This document shows, in pieces, positions 2 to 32,324 of a stretch of 32,982 nucleotides of DNA. Within the stretch, counting starts at the first letter, position 1. Each line of letters starts with the position of its first letter. Below the pieces are notes generated by a model. It worked only from the letters and a program-made list of their open reading frames with translations. It did no database searches and was not told the origin of the DNA. The stretch lies in assembly GCA_026992315.1 (NCBI GenBank), contig JALXAG010000274.1, positions 1 through 32,982 of the forward strand. Reading direction: 5' to 3'. Source of the stretch: Sneathiellales bacterium. GTDB lineage: Bacteria; Pseudomonadota; Alphaproteobacteria; Minwuiales; Minwuiaceae. The position numbers and the translations under genes were made by a program.

Positions 2-2005
2 ACGGTCGAAGCCGACACCCTGCGCCGCCTGAGCGGCCGGGAAGAGGAAGGGACAGGCGCCTCCCCTGGTGATGAGAACATTCTCAACCGTCGGATCGGT
101 GCCGCGCCGGGCTATGAAACGGCCCTTGGCGCCGTGCTGGGGGAGGATCTGGAAGCATCGACGGATGAAGGCGCCGATCTGTATTGGGGGGAAGCCGCCG
201 CCAACCCCTCCACCCCGCTGCCCGAAGGCGCCCGGCCGCTGCTTGAATATGTCAGCGCGCCGGAACGTCTGCATTCGCGGCTATCGCAGATCGGCATCGT
301 CGCCGATAATGCGACCGGCGATACCCTGTACCGCCAGTTGCACCCCGGTCAGCGTCTGGTCAGCCCGGACGGAGCCTGCTGGCGCTGGGACGGGCTGATC
401 CGGCGCAGGGCGGCCCCCTCGCGCACCGCCGTGCTGCTGGAACAGCGCAACCGCCTTGCCGCCCTCGAAGAACGCATCGCCACGGCCAGGGCAAGGGCCG
501 AAGAGGCACGCAGGGCGGCAGATGCCGCAAAGGCTGCCCTGAAAGAAAGCGCCGAGGCGCTGCGTATGCAGGAGCAAGCCTGCGATGCCTGCCGCCGGGA
601 ACGCGACCGCGCCCGCGATCGCATGCAGAAGCTTGCAGCGGAGCTGGAACGCCGCCGCGCCGCGGAAGCCGCCTTGCAGGCACGGATCGCGGAACTGGAG
701 GAAGATCTGCGCCAGGCCCGCACCGCCGCGGAAACGACGGAAACGGCACTGAAGGCCCTGCCTGACGAGGCCCCGCTGCTGCAGCGGGCGGAAAAGGCCC
801 GGACCGGGCTGGATGACGCCCGGGAGCATCTGCGCCGTGCCGAAGCGGAAGCCGCGGCCCTGCGCGAACAGATTCGACAGCATCAGGCCCGGCGCCAGCG
901 TCTGCAGCGCGATATCGCCCAATGGCGCCAGCGCCTCGAAAAAGGCCGCCAGCACCTGAAGGACCTGCAGAACCGCCTCAAGGAAACCGAGAGGGAGCGC
1001 GAACAGCTCGCCGCCCGCCCCGGCGTGCTGGCGGAAAGGCGCCAGGCCCTGCTGGGCAAGCTGGCACTGGCGGAAAAAGAACGCGATGAAGCCGTCGATG
1101 CCCTGCACAGGGTCAGGGACAAGCTCGGCGAAGCCAGGCTGCAGGAGCAGGCGGCGCAAAAAAAACTGGCCGATGCGCGCGCCGCCCTTGCCGGTCTGGA
1201 ATCCGACTGCCGCCACCATCAGGAACGGCTGGAGGAAATGGCGGCACGCATCCTCGAATCCCTCGAATGCGCCCCGGAAGCCATTCTCGGCCGGCTGGGC
1301 ATCGGCGAGGGCGAGGAACTGCCCGATGCCGAGACCTGCGAACGCAGGCTGGAGCGCTGGAAACGGGAACGACAGAACATGGGCGCGGTCAATCTGCGCG
1401 CCGAGGCCGAAGCACAGGAAACCACGGAAAGAATAGAAGCGCTGACGGCGGAAAAAGAGGATCTGGAAGCGGCGATCGGCAGGCTCCGCCGCGCCATCGC
1501 CAATCTGAACCGTGAAGGGCGCGAACGCCTGCTGGCCGCCTTCGAAAGGGTGGATGCGCATTTCCAGAAGCTTTTCGTCCGCGTCTTCGGCGGCGGACGG
1601 GCGCATCTGTCCCTGACGGAGGCGGAGGACCCGCTTGAAGCCGGACTCGAGATCATGGCCAGCCCGCCTGGAAAACGCCTGCAGCTGATGTCGCTGCTCT
1701 CCGGCGGCGAACAGGCCCTGACGGCGCTGGCACTGCTGTTCGCCGTCTTCCTGACCAATCCCGCCCCCATCTGCGTCCTCGACGAGGTGGACGCGCCGCT
1801 GGACGATGCCAATGTGGAACGGCTCTGCCGTCTGCTGGAGGATATCTGCCGCCAGACGGCGACCCGCTTCCTCTGCGTCACCCATCATCCGCTGACCATG
1901 GCGCGCATGGACCGGCTGTTCGGCGTCACCATGGCCGAGCGGGGGATTTCGCAATTGGTTTCGGTCGATCTGTCCACTGCCGAGGAGTGGCGCGACAGCG
2001 CCTGA
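2..2005 (+). CDS. smc: Chromosome segregation protein SMC, 3' part (5' end outside window)
   Basis: This is the C-terminal 667 residues of the SMC ATPase that compacts and segregates the chromosome with ScpA/ScpB. The frame is open from base 2, so the true start lies upstream. The first ~100 residues look like the later part of the hinge (for example PGYETALGAVLGEDLEA). A long Glu/Arg/Ala-rich coiled coil follows, then the C-terminal ABC half. The ABC signature LLSGGEQALTALALLFAVF lies near 1695-1750, followed by a Walker B segment with a catalytic Asp-Glu (ICVLDEVDAPLDDANV, near 1769-1815) and a switch His (CVTHH). The N-terminal Walker A half is not visible. The gene ends with TGA, 138 bases before the likely atpI start. 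No frameshift is seen. The family assignment is secure; MukB or RecN fit worse because of the hinge and the signature. Confidence 0.96.
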   Translation, partial: TVEADTLRRLSGREEEGTGASPGDENILNRRIGAAPGYETALGAVLGEDLEASTDEGADLYWGEAAANPSTPLPEGARPLLEYVSAPERLHSRLSQIGIVADNATGDTLYRQLHPGQRLVSPDGACWRWDGLIRRRAAPSRTAVLLEQRNRLAALEERIATARARAEEARRAADAAKAALKESAEALRMQEQACDACRRERDRARDRMQKLAAELERRRAAEAALQARIAELEEDLRQARTAAETTETALKALPDEAPLLQRAEKARTGLDDAREHLRRAEAEAAALREQIRQHQARRQRLQRDIAQWRQRLEKGRQHLKDLQNRLKETEREREQLAARPGVLAERRQALLGKLALAEKERDEAVDALHRVRDKLGEARLQEQAAQKKLADARAALAGLESDCRHHQERLEEMAARILESLECAPEAILGRLGIGEGEELPDAETCERRLERWKRERQNMGAVNLRAEAEAQETTERIEALTAEKEDLEAAIGRLRRAIANLNREGRERLLAAFERVDAHFQKLFVRVFGGGRAHLSLTEAEDPLEAGLEIMASPPGKRLQLMSLLSGGEQALTALALLFAVFLTNPAPICVLDEVDAPLDDANVERLCRLLEDICRQTATRFLCVTHHPLTMARMDRLFGVTMAERGISQLVSVDLSTAEEWRDSA

Positions 2006-2059
2006 TCGCCTGCCGTGGAAGCAGGCAGGTATCGTTGGCGGCGGCGGTTTCTTTCGCTC

Positions 2060-2120
2060 TTGACTTGCCCTGCACCTGCCAGTAGGTTTGCCGCGCTTTT
2101 GACGTGGCCTGGCACCTGCC
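2060..2120 (+). promoter_or_regulatory. Candidate promoter region of the F0 operon with an imperfect 21/22-base direct repeat
   Basis: Two similar units occur at 2060-2080 and 2099-2120, each starting TTGAC and ending GCACCTGCC, 39 bases apart. The first could supply a -35 element (TTGACT, 2060-2065) with TAGGTT at 2083-2088 after a 17-base spacer. The second has a -35-like TTGACG but no convincing -10. An inverted copy of the shared heptamer (GGCAGGT) lies at 2024-2030. This is the only non-coding stretch between smc and atpI, so an operon promoter is expected here. The exact assignment is an inference. Confidence 0.35.
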
Positions 2121-2143
2121 GCCACACTGTTCGAGCGGGCCGG

Positions 2144-2620
2144 ATGGATGATGCGCATATTGATGAAGAAAGCGCTTGTTCTCTTCGGCCACGATCCGGC
2201 CGGGATAAAGCCGTGAGCGGCCCCCGGAAAGATCGCGATCATGCGGGGAAACAGGAAGCGGATTCCGCTCCCCCCGACGACGAGCAGCGTGTGTTTCTGC
2301 AGGAGCGGGAGGCGCTGAAAGCACTGGATGCCCGCCTGAAAAAGGCCCGGGAGCACGAATCGGATCCCTTCGGGGACCGGCTGAACCCGGCAAGGCGTCC
2401 TGACAGTGCGCAAGCCATGGCCTGGCGCATATCGGTCGAAATTGTCGTGGCGCTCGGCGTCTGCGGTTTTATCGGCTGGTGGCTGGACAAGTGGTTTGAC
2501 ACGAAACCATGGTTGATGGTGGTATTCCTGCTGCTGGGTTTCGGGGTCGGCATTCGCAATGTCTACCGTATCGGCAGGGATGCCATGGATGAGGGAACAG
2601 ACGGCGACGGACGGGAATGA
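2144..2620 (+). CDS. atpI: ATP synthase protein I (AtpI)
   Basis: First gene of the F0 operon. AtpI is a small membrane protein thought to help assemble the c-ring and perhaps to aid cation uptake. From the ATG at 2144 it has 158 residues: a charged, low-complexity N-terminal ~90 residues with a short heptad-like stretch (around 48-72), then two membrane segments (about 98-113 and 122-142) carrying the family pattern of glycines (GFIGWWLDKWF and FLLLGFGVGIRNVYRI). The start is uncertain. GTG at 2213 is preceded by a GGATAAAG-like site and would give 135 residues, nearer the usual length. An upstream in-frame ATG-less extension to 2015 looks non-coding. It stands 68 bases before atpB, consistent with cotranscription. 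Confidence 0.85.
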   Translation: MDDAHIDEESACSLRPRSGRDKAVSGPRKDRDHAGKQEADSAPPDDEQRVFLQEREALKALDARLKKAREHESDPFGDRLNPARRPDSAQAMAWRISVEIVVALGVCGFIGWWLDKWFDTKPWLMVVFLLLGFGVGIRNVYRIGRDAMDEGTDGDGRE

Positions 2621-2688
2621 TTCAGGCCAGCGCCAGGCGCTGCGCGTACAGACAATCACCGCCATGCCGCAAAGAATGGATTTGAGCC

Positions 2689-3423
2689 TTGGAAGAGCAT
2701 AGTCCTCTCGCCCAATTCGAGATCAAGAAGCTGATCGAAATTCCCCTTGGCGGAATTGACGCATCCTTCACCAATTCATCCCTGTGGATGATGATCTCCA
2801 TCATTCTGGCCACCGCCTTTCTGACCCTGAGCATGCGCGGGCGTGCCATGGTGCCCGGCCGCTGGCAGTCCATGGCCGAGCTGGTCTACGAATTCGTCGC
2901 CAACATGCTGCGCGACAATGTCGGCTCCGGAGGACGGCGTTACTTCCCGTTCATCTTCACGCTGTTCGTGTTTATCCTGTTCAACAACAGCCTGGGCATG
3001 GTCCCCTACAGCTTCACGCCCACCAGCCATATCATCGTCACCTTTGCCATGGCTGTCGTGGTGTTCATCGGCGTCACCATCATCGGTTTCATCAAGAACG
3101 GTACCGGCTTTCTCAAGCTTTTCGTGCCTTCCGGCGTGCCGTGGTTCCTGCTGATCATCCTGGTGCCGATCGAAGTCATTTCCTATTTCGTCCGCCCGAT
3201 CAGCCTGTCTGTCCGGCTTTTCGCCAACATGATGGCCGGGCATACCATGCTGAAGGTCTTCGGCGGCTTTGTCGTCTCCCTCGGCCTGCTCGCCGGGTGG
3301 GCACCGCTGCTGTTCATTATCGCCCTGACGGGCATGGAAATCGGCATTGCCATGCTGCAAGCCTACGTATTCACCGTTCTGAGCTGCCTGTATCTTCACG
3401 ATGCGCTGCATCCGGGCCACTGA
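2689..3423 (+). CDS. atpB: F0F1 ATP synthase subunit a
   Basis: Subunit a forms the two proton half-channels against the c-ring in the inner membrane. The protein has 244 residues and five to six hydrophobic helices. The essential arginine is R176 in SLSVRLFANMMAGH, and the N-terminal SPLAQFEIKKLI is typical of alphaproteobacterial subunit a. The start is TTG at 2689: an in-frame TGA lies at 2683-2685, so no upstream start exists in this frame, and the next ATG would remove conserved N-terminal residues. A weak GGA lies 8 bases upstream. It is followed 65 bases later by atpE. Confidence 0.96.
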   Translation: MEEHSPLAQFEIKKLIEIPLGGIDASFTNSSLWMMISIILATAFLTLSMRGRAMVPGRWQSMAELVYEFVANMLRDNVGSGGRRYFPFIFTLFVFILFNNSLGMVPYSFTPTSHIIVTFAMAVVVFIGVTIIGFIKNGTGFLKLFVPSGVPWFLLIILVPIEVISYFVRPISLSVRLFANMMAGHTMLKVFGGFVVSLGLLAGWAPLLFIIALTGMEIGIAMLQAYVFTVLSCLYLHDALHPGH

Positions 3424-29899: not shown

Positions 29900-29975
<76 letters not shown>

Positions 29976-30070: not shown

Positions 30071-30102
30071 GAAGATAAGCGAAGACCTATAAAGGTACGA
30101 TG

Positions 30103-31758
30103 ATGGAAACACAGCTCGACCCGCAAGAAATGCAGACCCGTCTCTCTTTCATGGAGATTGACGACCATACCGCACAGGCCCTTCAGGAAGCCTGGCCTGT
30201 CATCGATGACGCATTGGAAACCATTCTCGACGGTTTCTATACCCGCATCATGGCCACCCCGGAAACCGCGAAAATCCTTGGCAAACCGGAGCGTGTGCCA
30301 GGGTTGAAGAATTCCCAGCGGGAACACTGGCGCGCAATCTTTTCCGGCAAGTTCGATTCCGAATTCGCCGCCCGCGTCAAAACCATCGGGATTACGCATG
30401 CCAAGATCGGCCTTTCCCCGCAATGGTATGTCGGCGGTTACGCCTATGCCTTCAAGGAAATGCAGAAATGCCTGATCCGGGCCTTTGCCAACGATCCGGA
30501 ACGGCTGAGTGCAATTCTCGAAGCCGCAACACAGGCCATCATGCTGGATATGGAGCTGGCCATTTCCGTCTATATCGAGCGTGAGGAGGAAACCCGCAAG
30601 GCCGATCTCGTCAAACTCGCCGACAAGCTGGAAGAGGAAGTGCAGACGGCGGTTGAAATGGTCGTCGGCAAAAGCGGCGAGATCACGCAGGTCAGCGAAT
30701 CCATTTCCGATATTCTGAACACCGTGGATAAACGTTCCTCGGCGATGAACGAAGCCTCGCAGATGACCAACGACACGATCAAGACCGTTGCCAGCGCCGC
30801 ACAAAGCCTTTCGGTGGCGGAACAGCAGATCAAGGAAGAAGTGCGCAAATGCTCCGAGGTTGCCGATCAGGCCGTGCAGGAAACCAATGTGGCGGATGAA
30901 CGCATTCAGGATCTGTCGCGCGTTGGCCAGCAGATCAGCGATGTCGCCAAGCTGATTTCTGAAATCGCCGGACAAACGAACCTTCTGGCCCTGAATGCCA
31001 CCATAGAGGCCGCCCGCGCCGGCGAAGCGGGCAAGGGCTTTGCCGTGGTCGCCAATGAGGTCAAGGCCCTGGCCACGCAGACCAGCAAGGCCACGGGTGA
31101 AATCGCCAATAACATCGCGGCGATCCAGGCGGCAACAGATGAAGTATCCCAGGCCATTACCCGCATCGGCAGCACCATCAACCGGGTGGAGGAAACCAGC
31201 TCAGCCATCGCCGATGCCGTCGAACAGCAATCCGCCGCCACCCATGAGATCACCGTCAGCGCCCAGCAGGGCGCCCAGGGCACCCAACAAGTGGCCGAAG
31301 GCATAGACGATGTAGCCGGAGAAATCTCCCAGACAACCGGTCTGGTGCAAACGCTGTTCAGCAACTCGGCGGAAATGTCCGATGACATCCGCAACCTTCA
31401 CGAGACAGTGCAGGACATCATGGTCACCCTGCGCGCCCATGAAGTCTTCGACCGCCGGGAACATCGCAGGCATCGCATCAATATGCCCGGCACGCTCACG
31501 ACCGCCAATGGCGACAGCTTCAAGGCCGATGTCATCGATATTTCCGAGGGCGGGTTCTCCTTCGGACGGAATATCGATATCCCTTCCGGTTCCATTGTCA
31601 GCCTGAGCATGAGCCGTTTCAGCACTGAACTGAAGGCGCGTTTCGTGCGCAACAGCGAGGACCGGGCCCATTTCGCCTTTGCCCTCGGCGCCGATGCGAA
31701 GAGGGAGCTGAAAAACTACATTCAGGATCTGCTGGCCCAGGATGCCATGGTCGCCTGA
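30103..31758 (+). CDS. Globin-coupled methyl-accepting chemoreceptor with C-terminal PilZ domain
   Basis: 551 residues, soluble (no hydrophobic membrane segment). Residues 10-165 form a sensor globin: the proximal haem ligand is H99 in [19 protein letters not shown], matching HemAT-type oxygen sensors. A linker helix and the chemoreceptor signalling domain follow; its hairpin tip [20 protein letters not shown] begins at 287 and is continued by [15 protein letters not shown]. From 451 on comes a PilZ c-di-GMP-binding domain with the RxxxR-like RREHRRHR (451-458) and DISEGG (479-484). The protein could thus join oxygen (or NO/CO) sensing, CheA control and c-di-GMP. I chose ATG 30103, seven bases after AAAGG; ATG 30100 is adjacent. 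It is monocistronic. No che genes are in the window. Confidence 0.94.
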
Positions 31759-31776: not shown

Positions 31777-31790
31777 TCCTGAGATCAGGA
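31777..31790. terminator. Small inverted repeat between convergent MCP and PAS genes
   Basis: TCCTGA-GA-TCAGGA is a perfect inverted repeat 19 bases after the MCP stop and covers the PAS gene stop codon. No T-tract is present, so its role as a shared terminator is weakly supported. Confidence 0.25.
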
Positions 31791-32324
31791 GCGGGAGCGG
31801 GTTTGATGATAGCTTTCAAAATCCGCATCCCCGCGCCTGGCCTCAATCCCCGCAAGAATACAGCCAACCCGGTTTTCTTCCTTCTCATCCCTCAACGGCA
31901 GGGACAGACGGCTGAACTGGCGGATCGATTGCCATGGATATTCTATGGTCGTGTAATGGGGTAAGCCGCCTTGTGCGACCTCGTTCAGCCAGCCGAACAG
32001 TCTCGCAGTAAAAGCATCTTCGCCGCTGAAGACTTCGTCCAGATAGCGGCCAGTACAGTTCTGGCCGATCAGCTCGACAATCTCACTGCCGATCAGGCGG
32101 TAACGGTAGCGCGGCCTGTCGTTTTGCCACAGCACATCGATCAGGGAAACTTTCGGCAAGGCGAAGGAAATCGAGAAAGGCAGATTCATTTCCTGCCGGC
32201 TGGGCATATCCCCATCCCGTCTGCATCTATCCCATACGGAATAAAGCCGCTGCAACACCGGCTCGGCAATATCACTCTCCGACAGCATTCTCTCCCCCAC
32301 ATGCGTGAGAAAAGAATCCTTCAT
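31785..32324 (-). CDS. PAS_5-domain protein, function unknown
   Basis: 179 residues, a stand-alone PAS fold of the PF07310 (PAS_5) type common in alphaproteobacteria. Visible family features: an N-terminal helix with VLQRLYSVWDRCRRDGDMPSR, then PFSISFALPKVSLIDVLWQ, RYRYRLIGSEIVELIGQNCTGRYLDEV, and a C-terminal strand FSRLSLPLRDEKEENRVGCILAG. There is no kinase, cyclase or HTH output domain. It may sense a ligand for a partner protein, but none is evident. It lies 6 bases after the glycerate kinase stop, on the same strand, and converges with the MCP gene. Confidence 0.82.
   Translation of the reverse strand: MKDSFLTHVGERMLSESDIAEPVLQRLYSVWDRCRRDGDMPSRQEMNLPFSISFALPKVSLIDVLWQNDRPRYRYRLIGSEIVELIGQNCTGRYLDEVFSGEDAFTARLFGWLNEVAQGGLPHYTTIEYPWQSIRQFSRLSLPLRDEKEENRVGCILAGIEARRGDADFESYHQTRSRS

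Follow-up and report, generated by a model that had tools for sequence, protein, structure and literature searches.

The gene described here encodes a chemoreceptor of 551 amino acids, counted from the second of two adjacent ATG codons at 30100 and 30103 (ATGATG). Its frame runs uninterrupted to a TGA stop at 31756-31758 of the window, by which is meant the whole 32,982-nucleotide stretch of DNA that was analysed. The gene is solitary and lies outside any che operon, with a tRNA-Phe gene and a converging gene for a PAS_5-domain protein at its flanks (Table 1).

Table 1. Features of the receptor locus, with positions in the window
Feature	Residues	Position	Strand	Evidence or remark
tRNA-Phe		29900..29975	+	Context only, upstream of the receptor gene
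Globin-MCP-PilZ receptor, whole CDS		30100..31758	+	Open frame and three Pfam domains above cut-off
Protoglobin (globin-coupled sensor) domain	8-162	30124..30588	+	PF11563, E 8.2e-41, 140 bits vs cut-off 25
MCPsignal domain	248-405	30844..31317	+	PF00015, E 1.2e-31, 110 bits vs 34.6
PilZ domain	450-540	31450..31722	+	PF07238, E 1.3e-8, 35.5 bits vs 22.5
PAS_5-domain protein, converging context gene		31785..32324	-	PF07310, E 1.8e-6

Domains, haem pocket and signalling rod

The original prediction held that a globin, a methyl-accepting chemotaxis protein (MCP) module and a PilZ domain are fused in one soluble protein. Pfam confirms all three modules in the stated order (Protoglobin, MCPsignal, PilZ); domains were counted only above their curated gathering scores, which all three exceed, and the remaining Pfam matches are weak coiled-coil matches that carry no weight. 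Given the E-values and the existence of homologues with the same three domains, a chance origin of the call is excluded, and the three-domain combination is real. Solubility is borne out as well, in that no transmembrane helix was found by hydropathy (the mean over a 19-residue window peaks at 1.29). The residues singled out beforehand, namely H99, the MCP hairpin, R451-R456 and D479-S481-G484, are all placed correctly.

The globin part matches HemAT of Bacillus subtilis (PDB 1or4, E 5e-14), and the pocket region aligns to it ungapped, so that a constant offset of 24 gives the equivalences H99 to the proximal His123, Y46 to Tyr70, Y109 to Tyr133 and S71 to Thr95. Y46, H99 and Y109 are invariant across 13 homologues. 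Thr95 belongs to the HemAT oxygen network (review PMC13401364), and its replacement by S71 is the sole change at a residue named in that network. HemAT-type globins take O2, CO and NO as ligands, and the globin-MCPs characterised so far mediate aerotaxis (review PMC13401364). The receptor is predicted to bind haem, with O2 as a ligand.

The tip of the MCP hairpin, which interacts with CheA and CheW (residues 291-326), is nearly invariant in homologues. A single-sequence AlphaFold model, confident for the coiled coil only (pLDDT of the globin and PilZ domains is mostly below 50), places helices 132-305 and 309-447 around this tip as a long two-helix coiled coil. Because the two helices fold back at the tip, the PilZ domain would start close to the end of the rod that bears the globin. 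A simple pattern search for the strict methylation-site pattern gave no match in the receptor, and one relaxed match lies at 372.

Both c-di-GMP motifs of the PilZ domain are intact: RxxxR (R451/R452-R455/R456) and DxSxxG (D479-S481-G484). Comparison of the PilZ stretch with PDB sequences returned no match, so the family assignment rests on the Pfam score and the motifs, from which the domain is predicted to bind c-di-GMP.

Distribution and history of the triple architecture

The domain search proposed alongside the original prediction started from protoglobin matches in 83 of 385 sampled alphaproteobacterial genomes. Those whose reading frame reached about 485 amino acids or longer were retrieved, and candidates were checked by Pfam. 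Triple proteins number 10 in 8 of the 385 genomes, the receptor included; this is a lower bound, as proteins at contig ends may escape. The other nine are L013, L015, L016, L041, L045, L047, L051, L052 and L053, with L051 and L052 in one genome and the globin of L053 interrupted by a contig end. About 10% of the alphaproteobacterial genomes that carry a protoglobin (8 of them) thus possess the architecture. The suggestion that the three-way fusion is uncommon stands as a statement of rate, but not as one of uniqueness, since the architecture recurs, also on annotated Azospirillum plasmids.

The GTDB genus of the receptor is represented by one sampled genome. Nine genomes sampled from its family and order yielded globin-MCPs of 37-38% identity, none with PilZ at the cut-off used. 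Outside Alphaproteobacteria, no PilZ was found among the long-frame candidates from a 398-genome phylum sample, which were checked with a small home-made profile, a weaker check than Pfam. A further globin-MCP-like protein, annotated as hypothetical, is encoded in the 274-kb record of Microcystis phage MaAM05 (MW495066.1, 19689-20867; 35% identity over residues 11-383) and could be either a real viral gene or host contamination.

On a tree of 57 rows built from the globin-MCP part, the PilZ label changes eight times, at least three of them on well-supported branches. PilZ is absent from the sister and nearest relative of the receptor (L014, at 45% identity and with a support of 95), which implies that the domain is dispensable to the basic function. 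A single origin of the fusion, kept since, was rejected when all PilZ-bearing rows were constrained together (AU p 2.3e-5). Loss of PilZ by frameshift was also considered for L014 and for the truncated-looking L030, and at neither locus did the profile find a PilZ remnant in any frame. The tree indicates repeated gain or loss of PilZ and does not tell the two apart.

Other C-terminal tails occur among the homologues. Six globin-MCPs (L048, L049, L050, L054, L055 and L060) carry a C-terminal CZB domain and no PilZ, and fall in one supported clade that includes L058; the CZB tail is an accessory-domain choice parallel to PilZ. The triple-type protein L025 (genome G316, 1501-3153) has a PilZ-like tail that keeps RxxxR and has DxNxxG in place of DxSxxG, with no Pfam PilZ match among those listed; it is possibly a PilZ domain that is losing c-di-GMP binding.

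Proposed function and competing readings

The genome of the receptor encodes a CheA-like protein (a 949-amino acid open frame with two CheW-type matches) adjoining a CheW gene on one contig (C26), a partial CheW-type match on another contig, 14 MCP-type matches, FliG, nine GGDEF proteins and three PilZ proteins. From these genes, machinery for flagellar chemotaxis and for c-di-GMP synthesis is present. The complement also includes a second globin-MCP without PilZ (C78:1182-2390), 38% identical to the receptor.

Since the diagnostic residues are in place and the CheA/CheW, flagellar and GGDEF genes are found in the same genome, the best reading is a receptor that combines haem-ligand and c-di-GMP signals before CheA. 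Most likely the protein is a HemAT-type O2 receptor of the cytosol, with c-di-GMP acting through the C-terminal PilZ domain to tune its output to CheA. Binding of a haem ligand would change the globin dimer and, via the MCP coiled coil, the activity of CheA, and c-di-GMP bound to PilZ would shift the sensitivity or signalling state of the receptor. The outcome would be an aerotaxis dependent on the motile or sessile status of the cell. We infer both the coupling to CheA and the direction of the response. A more specific version treats the receptor as a coincidence detector. The hairpin of the MCP module brings globin and PilZ to one end of the rod, where a direct contact between them is plausible. 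It is tentatively possible, though on the whole doubtful, that such a contact lets c-di-GMP alter how tightly the haem binds its ligand or how the O2 signal is coupled, and that the fusion was selected several times independently in Alphaproteobacteria.

The absence of PilZ from close relatives, its coming and going on the tree and the broken second motif in the PilZ-like tail of L025 would also fit a domain that serves as a handle for assembly or localisation (array clustering, or docking to the pole or motor) with no gating of the oxygen signal, leaving a plain HemAT in functional terms. However, the PilZ domain of the receptor retains every c-di-GMP residue, and loss or mutation of PilZ changes taxis in Tlp1, Aer and Cbp1 (PMC6406031, PMC6454048), so a pure handle is unlikely. 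The nature of the haem signal bears on a further alternative, in which NO or redox state takes the place of O2 and the receptor would serve NO avoidance or energy taxis. HemAT-type globins bind all three gases (PMC13401364), and ligand discrimination may differ with serine in place of the distal Thr95. Nevertheless, no relative departs from the distal Tyr46, whose HemAT counterpart Tyr70 belongs to the network of hydrogen bonds to O2, and aerotaxis is the role of the characterised globin-MCPs, which makes this alternative distinctly improbable.

Output could also lie outside the flagellum, with the CheA of the receptor acting on clumping or biofilm formation, for example. Biofilm or aggregation phenotypes do follow loss of Atu1027 or Cbp1 (PMC10851874, PMC6454048), but with FliG and one main CheA/CheW locus in the genome such an output appears very remote.

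Comparison with known systems

Pairings of globin with MCP and of MCP with PilZ had each been described as known, and this holds: Atu1027 is an experimental precedent for the former, and Cbp1, Aer and Tlp1 are for the latter. Atu1027 of Agrobacterium tumefaciens is a cytosolic globin-MCP whose aerotaxis requires His100 (PMC10851874). Like HemAT of B. subtilis and H. salinarum, it shares with the receptor a soluble MCP rod and, at the N-terminus, a protoglobin that has the proximal His and the distal Tyr. However, descriptions of these proteins name a globin and an MCP module and make no mention of PilZ, and the receptor has Ser where HemAT has Thr95. Cbp1 of Azorhizobium caulinodans, which is needed for normal chemotaxis, binds c-di-GMP through RxxxR with a KD of 14.9 uM (PMC6454048). 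It resembles the receptor as a soluble MCP with a C-terminal PilZ and intact RxxxR and D/NxSxxG, but consists of an N-terminal MCP and the PilZ only, with no globin reported. In Azospirillum brasilense, O'Neal et al. described seven PilZ chemoreceptors of differing topology, of which Tlp1 and Aer employ PilZ in aerotaxis (PMC6406031). These two are likewise aerotaxis-linked receptors ending in PilZ, but both are membrane proteins, and where the receptor has its globin, Aer has a PAS-FAD sensor and Tlp1 a periplasmic one.

Being compact and soluble, the receptor could allow O2 sensing and the control of taxis by c-di-GMP to be examined together in a single purified protein, with natural controls in the PilZ-less globin-MCP of its own genome and the PilZ-less nearest relative. 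The scattered distribution of the fusion shows PilZ to be a mobile accessory domain among the chemoreceptors of Alphaproteobacteria, not an isolated oddity. Among the papers searched, none describes or tests the globin-MCP-PilZ architecture, and none gives biochemistry for the receptor or its triple homologues; HemAT1/2 of M. gryphiswaldense may be further examples of it.

A parallel in domain order is found on plasmids of A. brasilense, whose proteins align to residues 12-526 of the receptor at about 34% identity. Among them, WP_237907670.1 (L012:4971-6962, NZ_CP059452.1) has globin, MCP and PilZ in the same order, but at 664 amino acids it carries an additional C-terminal CZB zinc-binding domain, and it is annotated merely as a methyl-accepting chemotaxis protein. 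The gene beside it on the opposite strand, whose annotation is a cache-domain protein, likewise encodes a pair of PilZ-like motifs at the C-terminus. Set against these systems, the receptor recombines standard modules, as seen repeatedly in Alphaproteobacteria, with its parts and both of its pairings already known.
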